64,000 nucleotides of DNA from NCBI RefSeq assembly GCF_020991085.1, contig NZ_CP087719.1, positions 3,802,001-3,866,000 on the forward strand. The letters run 5' to 3'. The stretch's first letter is position 1; each line of letters opens with the position of its first letter. Below are positions 38,492 to 44,913 of this stretch, piece after piece. Origin of the DNA: Roseomonas sp. OT10 (GTDB taxonomy: Bacteria; Pseudomonadota; Alphaproteobacteria; Acetobacterales; Acetobacteraceae). Under the pieces are notes generated by a model. The model was not told where the DNA came from. It did not search any database and saw only the letters and a program-made list of their open reading frames with translations. The position numbers and the translations under genes were made by a program.

Positions 38492-41400
38492 TTGCACCTG
38501 CTGGTCCGGGAGGTCCGGGAGCTGGACGCGGCGGAGGCGGCTGCCGATCTGGGCCAGACGCCCGCGCCCTGCGTGCTGCTCTCCTTCTCGGACAGCGACC
38601 TCGGCGCGGCCGCGGCGGCGTGGGAGGCGATGGCGCCCAGGGGACCGCAGAGGCGGCGGCCGGGGCTGCGGCTGGCGAGCCTCGCGCGGCTGCGGCACCC
38701 GATGTCGGTCGACCTCTACGCCGAGGCGGTGGTCGCGCGCGCGCGCTGCATCGTGGTGCGGCTGCTGGGCGGGCTGGACTACTGGCGCTACGGCGCCGAG
38801 GAGGTCGCGGCGCTGTGCCGGCGGGAGGGGATCGCGCTGGCCCTGCTGCCCGGGGACGGGCGCGAGGATGCGCGGCTGCGCGACCTCTCCACGCTCGATG
38901 CGGCGGCGCTGGACCGGCTGGACGGGTATTTCCGCCAGGGCGGGCCGGCCAACATGGACGCGGCGCTGCGGCTGATGGCGCATCTCGCGGGCGCGGGGCC
39001 GGACGACGCCCCGCCTCCGGAACCGCTGCCCGAGGGCGGGGAGGTCGCGCTCGGCACCCCGGACCCCGACGAGGCGGGGCGGCCCGTGGCGGCGGTGGTG
39101 CTGTACCGCTCGCACCTGCTGGCCGGCGACGTGGCGCCGCTGCACGCGCTGGCGGAGGCGCTGCGGGCGCGGGGGCTGGCGCCGCGCGGCCTGCACGTGG
39201 CCAGCCTGAAGACGCCTGCCCTGGCCGCGATGGTGGCGGCGCGGCTGCGGGAATGGCGGCCGGCCGTGGTGCTGAACGCGACCGGCTTCTCCGCGCGGCT
39301 CGGCGAGGCGGGCTCGCCGCTCGATGCCGCCGGGGTGCCGGTGTTGCAACTGGTGCTGTCGGGCAGCGCGCGCGCGGCGTGGGAGGCGTCGCCGCGCGGG
39401 CTGTCGCCCACCGATCTCGCGATGCAGGTGGCGCTGCCGGAGCTGGACGGGCGGCTGCTGACCACGGCGATCGGCTTCAAGGCCGAGGGGGCGCCGATCC
39501 CGGCGCTGGAATACGCCCGCACGGCGCTGCTGCCGGAGGCGGAGGGCATTGCCCTGGCCGCCGACCGCGCCGCCGGCTGGGCGCGGCTGGCCGCGACGCC
39601 GCGCGCGGAGCGTCGGGTGGCGGTGCTGCTCTCCGACTATCCCGGCGCGGGCGGCGAGGCGCGGGGCCAGGTCGGGCAGGCGGTGGGGCTGGACAGCTTC
39701 GCCAGCCTGGAGGCGCTGCTGCGCGACCTCTCGGCGGCGGGCTACACGGCCGGGGCGCGGGATGCCCCCGCCCTGGTGGCGGCGCTGTGCCACGCGCCCC
39801 CGACTCCGATCCTGTCGCTGGAGGCGTACCGGCGGCGCTTCGATACCCTGCCGGCCGCATTCCGCGAAGCGGTCTGCGCCGCCTGGGGAGCGCCTGAGGA
39901 CGACCCCGGCCTGGAAAGGCTCGGGGGAGTGAACTCCCCCGAATCCCCCTCCTTTTTTCAGGAGTCCGCCACCGGCCCCGCCACCGCCCCACCCGCTGGC
40001 GGAGCCAGCGTGGTGGCGGCGCAGGTCCTGCCAACCGGCGGACTCCCGAAAGAGGGAGGGGGTGTGGGGGAGGTCACTCCCCCGCGCTTCACCCTGCGCT
40101 TCCTTCAGCTCGGCAACCTCACCCTCGCCGTCCAGCCGGATCGCGGGCACGCGACCGACCGGCGCGCCGGCTACCACGACCCGGACCGCCCGCCACGGCA
40201 CGGCTATGTCGCCGCCTATCTCTGGCTGCGCGAGGTGCTGGGCATCCACGCGCTGGTACATCTGGGCACGCACGGCACGCTGGAATGGCTGCCCGGGAAG
40301 GCGGTGGCGCTGTCGGCGGCCTGCGCCCCGGCGGCGCTGCTGCGCGGGCTGCCGGTGGTCTATCCGTTCATCGTCAACAACCCGGGCGAGGCGGCCGTGG
40401 CGCGGCGGCGGCTGGGGGCGGTGACGATCGGGCACCTGACGCCGCCGCTGCGCGCCGCCGGCTCGCACGGCGCGGCGCGGGAGCTGGAGCGGCTGATCGA
40501 CGAGTACGCCGCCGCCGACGGGCTGGACCGGCGGCGCACCGCGCTGCTGCGCGGGGAGATCCTCGACCGCGCCGCCGCGACCGGGCTGCTGGAGGAAAGC
40601 GGCATCCCGCGCGACTTGCCGGCGGAGGATGCGCTGGCGCGGCTGGATGCCTGGCTCTGCAACGTGAAGGAGATGCAGATCCGCGACGGGCTGCACGTCT
40701 TCGGCCGGGCGCCGGCCCCGGAGCGACGGGACGCGCTGCTCGCGGCGCTGGAGCGCGCGAGCCCCGGCGTGCCCGATCTGGCGGCGCGTCTGGAGGACTC
40801 GCCGGCGGCTGAGCGCGATGCGCTGCTCGCGGCGCTGGACGGGCGCTTCGTGCCGCCGGGTCCCTCGGGGGCACCGACGCGCGGGCGGGCGGACGTGCTG
40901 CCGACCGGGCGCAACCTCACCGCGCTCGACCCGCGCGCGGTGCCGACCCGCAGCGCGCTGGTGCTGGCGGAGAAGGCGGGGGCGGAGCTGCTGCGCCGGC
41001 ACCTCCAGGAGCAGGGCGAATGGCCGCGTTCCCTGGTGCTGGACCTCTGGGGCAGCGCCACGCTGCGGACAGGGGGGGAGGAACTGGCGCTCGCCCTCTG
41101 GCTGCTGGGCACGCGCCCGGTCTGGGACGAGGGCTCGGCGCGCGTGCGGGGGGTGGAGGTGCTGCCGCTCGCCACGCTCGACCGGCCGCGGGTGGACGTG
41201 ACGCTGCGGGTCTCCGGCCTGTTCCGCGACGCCTTCGCCGCGCAGATCGCGCTGTTCGACGAGGCGGTGCGCGCCGTCGCCGCGCGCGACGAGGCGGCCG
41301 AGTGGAACCCGCTGGCCGAAGCCGCGCGCGGCCTGTCGGGCGAGGCGTTCCGCCGCGCCACCACCCGCATCTACGGCGCCGCCCCGGGGGCCTATGGCGC

Positions 41401-42040
41401 CGGGACGGGCGAGGCGCTGGGGGCGGGGCGCGAGGCGCTGGGCGCAGCCTACCTGGCCGGCTCCGCCGCCGCCTATGGCGCGGGTCTGGAGGGAGCAGCC
41501 GATCCGGAGGGGTTCCGCGCGCGGGTCGCGGCCGCCTCGGCCTTCCTGCATCCGCAGGACCATGACGGCACCGACCTGCTGGACGGGCCGGAGCATGGCG
41601 CCCATGCCGGGGGCTTCGCCGCCGCCGCGACCATGCTGGGCAACGCCCCCGCCCTGTACCACGGCGACACCTCCGACCCGCAGCGTCCGACGGTGCGCGG
41701 GCTGGCCGAGGCGATCGCCCGCGTCACGCGCGGCCGCGCCGCCAACCCCGCCTGGATCGCCGGCCAGATGCGCCACGGCTATCGCGGCGCCGCCGAGATC
41801 GCCCGCGCGGTGGAGGGGCTGCACGGCTTCGCCGCCACCCTGCCGCAGCGGCTGGACCGGCAGATGGACCTGCTCTTCGACGCCACGCTCGGCACGCCGG
41901 AGGTGGCGCGTTTCCTGAAGGCCGAAAATCCCGCCGCTCATTCTGTTGTTCAGAACTTTTTCGCGGATGCCCTATACCGCGGGCTGTGGCATCCCAGGCG
42001 CAACATCGTCCTGGCCAGGCTGGACGAGGACCCCCGATGA
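38492..42040 (+). CDS. cobN: Aerobic cobaltochelatase subunit CobN, with in-frame palindromic insertion
   Basis: CobN is the large subunit that inserts cobalt into hydrogenobyrinic acid a,c-diamide, with CobS and CobT. The start is a TTG at 38492 (LHLLVREVRELDA), preceded by CAGGAGACAGGCGGC. The product is 1,182 residues, a little shorter than the ~1,250 typical. The conserved centre is clear: DRRAGYHDPDRPPRHGY, ALVHLGTHGTLEWLPGKAV, and the C-terminal LQRLDRQMD-type region. Residues 478-531 encode a palindromic element that falls just before the conserved LRFLQLGNLTLAVQP strand; the frame stays open. The stop overlaps cobG (ATGA). Confidence 0.95.
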   Translation: MHLLVREVRELDAAEAAADLGQTPAPCVLLSFSDSDLGAAAAAWEAMAPRGPQRRRPGLRLASLARLRHPMSVDLYAEAVVARARCIVVRLLGGLDYWRYGAEEVAALCRREGIALALLPGDGREDARLRDLSTLDAAALDRLDGYFRQGGPANMDAALRLMAHLAGAGPDDAPPPEPLPEGGEVALGTPDPDEAGRPVAAVVLYRSHLLAGDVAPLHALAEALRARGLAPRGLHVASLKTPALAAMVAARLREWRPAVVLNATGFSARLGEAGSPLDAAGVPVLQLVLSGSARAAWEASPRGLSPTDLAMQVALPELDGRLLTTAIGFKAEGAPIPALEYARTALLPEAEGIALAADRAAGWARLAATPRAERRVAVLLSDYPGAGGEARGQVGQAVGLDSFASLEALLRDLSAAGYTAGARDAPALVAALCHAPPTPILSLEAYRRRFDTLPAAFREAVCAAWGAPEDDPGLERLGGVNSPESPSFFQESATGPATAPPAGGASVVAAQVLPTGGLPKEGGGVGEVTPPRFTLRFLQLGNLTLAVQPDRGHATDRRAGYHDPDRPPRHGYVAAYLWLREVLGIHALVHLGTHGTLEWLPGKAVALSAACAPAALLRGLPVVYPFIVNNPGEAAVARRRLGAVTIGHLTPPLRAAGSHGAARELERLIDEYAAADGLDRRRTALLRGEILDRAAATGLLEESGIPRDLPAEDALARLDAWLCNVKEMQIRDGLHVFGRAPAPERRDALLAALERASPGVPDLAARLEDSPAAERDALLAALDGRFVPPGPSGAPTRGRADVLPTGRNLTALDPRAVPTRSALVLAEKAGAELLRRHLQEQGEWPRSLVLDLWGSATLRTGGEELALALWLLGTRPVWDEGSARVRGVEVLPLATLDRPRVDVTLRVSGLFRDAFAAQIALFDEAVRAVAARDEAAEWNPLAEAARGLSGEAFRRATTRIYGAAPGAYGAGTGEALGAGREALGAAYLAGSAAAYGAGLEGAADPEGFRARVAAASAFLHPQDHDGTDLLDGPEHGAHAGGFAAAATMLGNAPALYHGDTSDPQRPTVRGLAEAIARVTRGRAANPAWIAGQMRHGYRGAAEIARAVEGLHGFAATLPQRLDRQMDLLFDATLGTPEVARFLKAENPAAHSVVQNFFADALYRGLWHPRRNIVLARLDEDPR
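39923..40083 (+). repeat. Palindromic element inserted in frame within cobN
   Basis: The two arms are 39,923-39,970 (starting GGGGGAGTGAACTCCCCC and ending CAGGAGTCCGCC) and 40,037-40,083 (starting GGCGGACTCCCGAAAG and ending GGGGGAGGTCACTCCCCC). They are inverted copies of one another at about 40 of 47 positions and enclose a 66-base loop. The element adds about 54 residues, with the Ser/Pro/Gly-rich composition of non-coding sequence, between conserved cobN segments. I classify it as a mobile or dispersed palindromic repeat. Confidence 0.8.
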
Positions 42041-43302: not shown

Positions 43303-43931
43303 GCGCCCCCATCGACTACATCCGCGACGGCGCGGCCATCTACGCCCGCTCCTTCGCCACCATCCGCGCCGAGGCGGACCTCTCCGGCCTCTCCCCCGAG
43401 GAGGCGCGGATCGCCGTGCGGATCATCCATGCCTGCGGCATGGTCGAGGTCGCCCCGAGGCTCCGCTTCCACCCGGACTTCGCCCGCGCCGCCCGCGCCG
43501 CCCTGCTCGCGGGCGCGCCCATCCTGTGCGACGCGAAGATGGTCGCCCACGGCATCACCCGCCCCCGCCTGCCCGCCGGCAACGACGTGCTCTGCACCCT
43601 GGACGACCCGCGCGTCCCCGACCTCGCCCGCCGCCTCGGCAACACCCGCTCCGCCGCCGCGCTGGATCTGTGGGGCGATCGCCTGGCCGGCGCCGTGGTC
43701 GCCATCGGCAACGCCCCCACCGCCCTGTTCCGCCTGCTCGAACTCCTCGACGCCGGCGCCCCCCGTCCCGCCGCCATCATCGGCCTGCCCGTCGGCTTCG
43801 TCGGCGCCGCCGAATCCAAGGACGCCCTGGCCGCCCGGGGCGACCTCCCCTGGCTCGTCCTCCCCGGCCGCCTCGGCGGCAGCGCCATGACCGTCGCGGC
43901 CGTCAACGCCCTGGCCAGCGAGGCGGAGTGA
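43299..43931 (+). CDS. cobH: Precorrin-8X methylmutase CobH
   Basis: CobH moves a methyl group from C-11 to C-12, giving hydrogenobyrinic acid. The protein is 210 residues. The catalytic His44 lies in VRIIHACGMVEV. Other family stretches are ILCDAKMVAHGI, IGNAPTALFRLLEL and GLPVGFVGAAESKDAL. The ATG overlaps the cobG stop, and an AGGAG site lies just upstream. Confidence 0.97.
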   Translation: MSAPIDYIRDGAAIYARSFATIRAEADLSGLSPEEARIAVRIIHACGMVEVAPRLRFHPDFARAARAALLAGAPILCDAKMVAHGITRPRLPAGNDVLCTLDDPRVPDLARRLGNTRSAAALDLWGDRLAGAVVAIGNAPTALFRLLELLDAGAPRPAAIIGLPVGFVGAAESKDALAARGDLPWLVLPGRLGGSAMTVAAVNALASEAE

Positions 43932-43939
43932 TGGGGGCG

Positions 43940-44184
43940 TGGCGCCCGTTCCCCCAGGGAGGGCTCCGCCCCCCTGGACCCCCCGCCAGGAGCAGAGCCC
44001 CTGGACCCCTATTCGTAAAAGTGTGGCGCTGCCGGAGAGGGGGTCTCCTCGACGGCGTCGCCGCGTCGAGGAGACCCCCAGGCGGCCAGCGCGATTATGA
44101 AAGGGGGTCCAGGGGCTCTGCTCCTGGCGGGATGGGTGTGGGAAGGGCAGCGCCCTTCCCACGGGCCACGGGCGCCACGCCGCC
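43940..44184 (+). repeat. Dispersed intergenic repeat, copy F, double and inverted, leader of cobI
   Basis: Between cobH and cobI the hairpin block occurs twice in opposite orientation. The first part reads CCGCCAGGAGCAGAGCCCCTGG and the second CCAGGGGCTCTGCTCCTGGC. Between them is a further palindrome built on GGGGTCTCCTCGAC/GTCGAGGAGACCCC. The second hairpin has perfect nine-base arms GGGAAGGGC (44,140-44,148) and GCCCTTCCC (44,152-44,160). The segment ends CACGGGCGCCACGCCGCC, immediately before the cobI ATG at 44185. Confidence 0.85.
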
Positions 44185-44913
44185 ATGACCCCCGGCCGGC
44201 TGCACACGGTCGGCGTCGGGCCGGGCGATCCGGAGCTGCTGACGCTGAAGGCGGCGCGGCTGATCGCGGCGGCGCCGGTGGTGGCGTACTTCGCCAAGAG
44301 CGGCCGGGCGGGCCATGCGCGGACGATCGCGGCGGCGCATGTGGCAGCGGGGGCGGAGGAGCTGCGCTTCGAGTACCCGTTCACGACCGAGGTGCCGCTG
44401 GAGGACCCGCGCTATGCCGCGGGGATCGGCGCCTTCTACGAGGACTGCGCCGGGATGCTGCGGGCGCGGCTGGAGGCCGGTCGCGACGTGGCGCTGCTCT
44501 GCGAGGGGGACCCGTTCCTCTACGGCTCGGCCATGTACCTGTTCGACCGCATCCCGCCCGCCCTGCGCGGCGAGGTGGTGCCGGGGGTCAGCGGGATGAG
44601 CGGCTGCTGGAGCCGGGCGCAGCGGCCGATGACGCATGGCGACGACGTGCTCTGCGTGCTGCCGGGGACCATGGCGACCGAGGCGTTGACGGCGCGGCTG
44701 CGCGGGGCGGACGCGGCGGTGGTGATGAAGGTGGGGCGCAACCTGCCCCGCATCCGCGCGGCGCTGGAGACGGCGGGGCTGCTGGACCGGGCGCTGTACG
44801 TGGAGCGCGGGACCATGGCGGGCGAGCGCATCCTGCCGCTGGCCGAGCGGGACGACGCGCCGGCGCCGTACTTCTCGATGGTGCTGGTGCCCGGGCGCCA
44901 GGGGGCGCGGTGA
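44185..44913 (+). CDS. cobI: Precorrin-2 C(20)-methyltransferase CobI
   Basis: CobI methylates precorrin-2 at C-20 using S-adenosylmethionine. The protein is 242 residues. The SAM-methyltransferase motifs are VGVGPGDPELLTLKAARLI, LLCEGDPFLYGSAMYL and VPGVSGMSGCW, and the RGTM-type motif ends the domain. No normal ribosome site precedes the ATG; the upstream bases are the end of repeat copy F. The gene may depend on that structured leader or on a leaderless start. Confidence 0.95.
   Translation: MTPGRLHTVGVGPGDPELLTLKAARLIAAAPVVAYFAKSGRAGHARTIAAAHVAAGAEELRFEYPFTTEVPLEDPRYAAGIGAFYEDCAGMLRARLEAGRDVALLCEGDPFLYGSAMYLFDRIPPALRGEVVPGVSGMSGCWSRAQRPMTHGDDVLCVLPGTMATEALTARLRGADAAVVMKVGRNLPRIRAALETAGLLDRALYVERGTMAGERILPLAERDDAPAPYFSMVLVPGRQGAR

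Follow-up and report, generated by a model that had tools for sequence, protein, structure and literature searches.

The cobN gene of Roseomonas sp. OT10 very probably carries a dispersed palindromic repeat that was inserted in frame into its coding sequence and is tolerated in a loop of the encoded protein, the large subunit of cobaltochelatase. The gene lies in the window, by which we mean the whole stretch of 64,000 nucleotides that was analysed, and the features under discussion are collected in Table 1. The start of CobN was placed at the TTG codon near which the alignments of its relatives begin, and the residue numbers of the insert assume this start.

Table 1. Features of the cobN gene, its palindromic element and the copy near cobO (window positions, except for the last line, which refers to locus L004)
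Feature	Position	Strand	Basis
cobN, cobaltochelatase large subunit, 1182 aa from TTG 38492	38492..42040, stop included	+	Pfam PF02514, E 7.7e-267; PDB CobN 9uk9_A, E 1.5e-250
Palindromic element (in-frame insert, 162 nt, 54 codons, CobN residues 478-531)	39923..40084	+	palindrome, loop arithmetic, 13 other genome copies
Left terminal hairpin, CGGGGGAGTGAACTCCCCCG	39922..39941	.	
Left arm, main stem, CCCCCTCC...GGAGTCCGCC	39945..39970	.	
Central hairpin of the core, CGCTGGC GGA GCCAGCG	39994..40010	.	
Right arm, main stem, GGCGGACTCC...GGAGGGGG	40037..40062	.	
Right terminal hairpin, GGGGGAGGTCACTCCCCCG	40066..40084	.	
Full element copy between cobO and a CobB/CobQ-family gene	L004:1467-1641		

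The most direct evidence for an insertion comes from the length of the loop that contains it. Between a WG motif and the next strand, 72 of the 80 relatives compared (the best 80 of 559 loci, with Pseudoroseomonas as the first-ranked named one) have 17 residues, whereas Roseomonas sp. OT10 has 71; taking away the 54 residues of the insert, which is flanked by GLERL and RFTL, leaves exactly 17. The other loops are of 10 residues (n = 4) or of 18, 19, 29 and 56 residues (n = 1 each), and the one of 56, in a metagenome-assembled genome (MAG), is the sole comparably long loop at the insert site among the 80, its insert being itself palindromic. In a separate alignment the 54-residue segment was absent from all 15 relatives, including three distant ones (G005, G010 and G047, about 30-35% identical). 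Among the matches listed in a family-wide search, read by eye, the longest other full CobN row spans 804 nt against 948 nt here, and in a class-wide search six rows (G567, G443, G662, G699, G646 and G731) span 849-951 nt, a comparison of length only. The cobN insertion site of this species was seen in one strain, and no target-site duplication could be read there.

The inserted DNA is a palindrome in three parts, consisting of two terminal hairpins (GGGGGAGTGAACTCCCCC and GGGGGAGGTCACTCCCCC), a main stem formed by the two arms listed in Table 1, and a central hairpin. The first-pass annotation of this DNA had described the segments 39923-39970 and 40037-40083 as inverted copies matching at about 40 of 47 positions, and on realignment 41 of 48 columns were identical. 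Its start for the element stands as well; its end, at 40083, is best placed one base further, because it is the removal of 39923-40084 that restores the 17-residue loop of the relatives. The frame remains open through the whole palindrome, arms and loop alike, for the gain of 54 residues that had been claimed. As a single strand, the region 39915-40090 (176 nt) folds with a predicted energy of -138.4 kcal/mol, while 200 dinucleotide shuffles average -83.7 (sd 4.7), so that the fold has a z of -11.6 and none of the 200 shuffles is equally stable. The palindrome is also beyond chance because a further copy, the next-best match in this genome, agrees with it at 84% of positions over 170 nt (E 3.3e-46). 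A comparison of ten copies found compensatory changes in 6 of the 51 predicted pairs and a covariation term of +0.28, which does not clearly point to selection for pairing in an RNA; Rfam families gave four matches, the lowest E being 0.2 and all of them far under the gathering score.

The codon usage of the insert is foreign relative to the rest of cobN. Its log-odds score is -0.135 per codon, against +0.128 for the lowest of 340 windows sampled elsewhere in the gene, and its third-position GC is 0.76 against 0.92-0.95. An open frame could be taken as a mark of coding selection on the element, a reading that was rejected since 34 of the 60 frames across the ten copies are free of stops anyway. 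The alternative that the segment is spliced or processed out of CobN, also raised in the first-pass annotation, has no sign in the sequence, and no such step is needed because the cobN frame remains open.

The place of the insert in the protein was considered with an AlphaFold model of CobN (alignment of 34 sequences; mean pLDDT 84.5, pTM 0.84) and with the solved CobN structure 9uk9_A, in which chain residues 487 and 492 correspond to the flanks of the insert. In the model the insert lies between a helix ending at residue 465 and a strand beginning at residue 532, and residues 480-499 and 501-524 have a pLDDT below 50. Modelling the insertion, as had been proposed earlier, thus gives a low-confidence loop between folded flanks, and the 54 residues probably form an extruded, disordered loop rich in Gly, Pro and Ala. 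We infer that CobN with the insert is most likely still functional.

A search of the genome for the arm sequence, the other check that had been proposed, found the element at 13 further sites. With a 176-nt query there are 14 separate sites at E<=3.2e-9, the cobN copy included, and a second query recovers the identical 14; the census should be read as at least 14, with 40 of 194 candidates scored for the first query and 40 of 52 for the second, and worn copies may be missed. The supposition that an element of this kind exists in the lineage is therefore borne out by the 14 sites and by the absence of the loop insert from relatives. An equivalent loop in orthologues and a lack of other arm copies, the two outcomes named beforehand as speaking against it, were both looked for and neither occurred. 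The 14 sites include three half copies, at genome positions 2505373, 3507450 and 2773263, and a worn copy at 3685681. The copies are about 72-88% alike, which indicates that the amplification was not very recent. A pattern for the end hairpins occurs at 18 places in the genome, 16 of them in element copies (backward control, 0), and at 0 to 3 places per genome in 14 congeners.

By a coding-potential scan 13 of the 14 copies are intergenic, the cobN copy being the sole genic one. Ten of the intergenic copies are in unidirectional gaps, three in convergent gaps and none in divergent gaps, each of them 3' of at least one gene; gene positions here rest on a codon model, for which 33 ORFs of the window, cobN among them, served as the training set, and not on annotation. 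Among the 26 proteins neighbouring the copies, 22 have a Pfam match, to ordinary enzymes, transporters and similar, and none of these 22 is a transposase. The genome has no match to the Y1 transposase (PF01797), for which the same search was positive in 5 of 14 control genomes, and a search of a plasmid collection with one genomic copy found none at E<=1e-5. Two copies lie in or next to B12 genes, namely the cobN copy and another that separates cobO from a CobB/CobQ-family gene.

Outside this genome the full element was found in none of 59 genomes at E<=1e-8, 14 of them congeneric, and at E<=0.001 three of the 14 congeners match over stretches of about 30 nt only. All four congeners with CobO lack the element at the cobO site, where cobO runs almost straight into the next gene; to judge from these sequences, the copy beside cobO is a lineage-specific gain. 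No target-site duplication can be read at its junction, where the sequence next to the element differs over some tens of bases as well. Upstream of recF, at the site of the worn copy in Roseomonas sp. OT10, the 1.6 kb read in 14 congeners lacks the core motif, a comparison in which the G012 match starts at residue 63 and the dnaN end is beyond view in some congeners. The end modules are distributed more widely: at E<=1e-5 they occur in at least 20 of the 396 other genomes of the family (2 candidates scored per genome). Of those inspected by eye, most are between ORFs, and their cores vary by genus, for example CTGTCAG types; a GGACTCCCGAAA core resembling that of the Roseomonas sp. OT10 element is present in genus g119, and coreless short forms are found in congeners G001 and G011.

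These observations can be put together as follows. A non-coding repeat of about 160 nt, dispersed in the genome and normally located just 3' of genes, very probably entered the coding sequence of cobN in this lineage, copied or transferred at the DNA level and presumably with the aid of a trans-acting enzyme. The gene stayed open because the net gain was 162 nt and the repeat entered in a frame without a stop. The insertion site is a short linker that joins a helix to the strand RFTLRFL, for which reason CobN can carry the loop, most likely as a working enzyme.

We consider it quite unlikely that cobN is instead a pseudogene in the making, with a recent palindrome, a frame left open by luck and a protein that is inactive or badly translated from a stable mRNA hairpin. 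The predicted stability of that hairpin in the transcript would fit such a case, and so would the ease with which a GC-rich element offers an open frame, as seen in the ten copies compared. However, the rest of CobN is about 65% identical to the closest relatives, to which it aligns in a single frame, and codon scores are normal on either side of the insert; the flanks look intact, as had been noted at the outset; the gene is also the sole CobN in the genome, among the matches listed, at E<=1e-20 with the CobN profile. Far less probable still is an ordinary variable loop whose DNA is self-complementary by accident. CobN inserts without a long palindrome do occur in relatives (28 residues in L135 and 12 in L171), and the class-wide search has rows as long as that of the window, G567 among them, but the same element sequence stands at the 13 further intergenic places and this reading is refuted by the dispersed copies.

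A different kind of doubt concerns the mover and not the insertion itself. The repeat might have spread by gene conversion or replication slippage among terminator-like palindromes at the 3' ends of genes and not by transposition, the cobN copy being a rare ectopic product. The end modules with different cores at intergenic-looking places in other genera, the short forms in congeners, the half copies and mosaics in the genome itself, and the failure to find a transposase in either the Y1 search or the neighbouring proteins are all in keeping with such a route. On the other hand, the cobO site is without such a palindrome in four congeners and the CobN loop of relatives is too short to hold one; since the congeners have no palindrome and the relatives' loop no room for it, there would have been nothing to convert at these two sites, and we regard this route as possible but doubtful.

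The likeness to the Rickettsia palindromic elements (RPEs), suggested when the palindrome was first noticed, holds for the way the element works and does not extend to a claim of membership. As the RPEs (Ogata et al. 2000 and 2002) are portrayed in PMC10969869 and PMC3733652, both are dispersed palindromes of about 150 bp, found in frame in a metabolic gene, where about 50 residues are gained at a tolerated place. An excerpt on Rickettsia conorii places nearly half of 44 RPE copies within genes, each coding a conserved peptide (PMC10969869); here the cobN copy is the only genic one of 14, the open frames differ from copy to copy and the lineage is another one. With the GTAG and CGTC superfamilies of REP repeats the element shares, in the passages describing them, its location next to gene 3' ends, where the gaps are unidirectional or convergent (PMC3733652), and its occasional occurrence in genes, intragenic GTAG and CGTC palindromes being known in several species (PMC3733652). 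It differs from the repeats in those passages in its length of about 160 nt, its three hairpins and its number of about 14 copies. None of ten copies has a GTAG or CGTC tag at an end, and four of the ten (L003, L005, L006 and L009) have isolated internal matches; the same source, in its relevant passages, presents the Acetobacteraceae as lacking CGTC repeats (PMC3733652). Miniature inverted-repeat elements (MITEs) are similar in size (70-300 bp), in having terminal inverted repeats and in having no internal gene, again as excerpted (PMC10969869), but no target-site duplication could be read at cobN or cobO and no related transposase was found here.

Searches of the open-licence literature brought up no title or abstract that describes this family, whether as a repeat in Roseomonas or the Acetobacteraceae or as an intragenic palindrome or REP. 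Within the literature searched, the kind of event is thus already known, while the repeat family and the host gene look new. To the few known protein-coding palindromes the case contributes one that has neither GTAG nor CGTC tags and comes from a GC-rich, Roseomonas-like alphaproteobacterium. Before and after can be compared unusually cleanly, since the loop lengths add up exactly, relatives show the site empty and this lineage gained a further copy near another cobalamin gene.

Palindromes unrelated to this element are found in frame in 2 of the 80 other CobN genes. They came from the inspection of five relatives with long segments (L139, L183, L135, L171 and L165), the last three of which have no long palindrome in their CobN inserts. 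In a Reyranella MAG (L139:2967-3041) the arms are of 36 nt, 97% complementary, and occupy the same CobN linker as here; in a Rhodopila MAG (L183:2856-2951) they are of 39 nt, 82%, in a different linker. A motif common to these two inserts, which its first letters suggest to be CGTC-type, has 146 and 50 occurrences in their respective genomes (control, 1 and 0) and 6 in that of Roseomonas sp. OT10 (control, 0). The 80 relatives and the window together thus have three in-frame palindromic inserts, each with a different repeat sequence, and one linker holds two of the three. It is a tentative and rather speculative proposal that unrelated mobile palindromes may land again and again in certain CobN linkers, and that palindromic repeats, here without a RAYT, may repeatedly have supplied Alphaproteobacteria with new stretches of protein, with a mover acting in this lineage. 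With palindromes in CobN from three lineages, the question whether such DNA builds protein loops time after time can be tested on a single enzyme whose structure is solved.

A second family of palindromic repeats was noticed in the same region. Upstream of cobN, the segment 38187-38292 appears by eye to be a worn half copy of the cobN element followed by this second family, as in L012 and L016; in these two, similar sequence continues to the right of the half copies and then gives way to the GTCCAGGG family, which looks like recombination between two families of palindromes. The second family, with GGGTCCAGGGGCTCTGCTCCTGG arms, occupies 43925-44192, between two ORFs of the B12 cluster, and the GGGTCCAGGGGCTCTGCTCCTGG arm is found at four sites of the window (20165, 38394, 43986 and 44105), against 0.01 expected.
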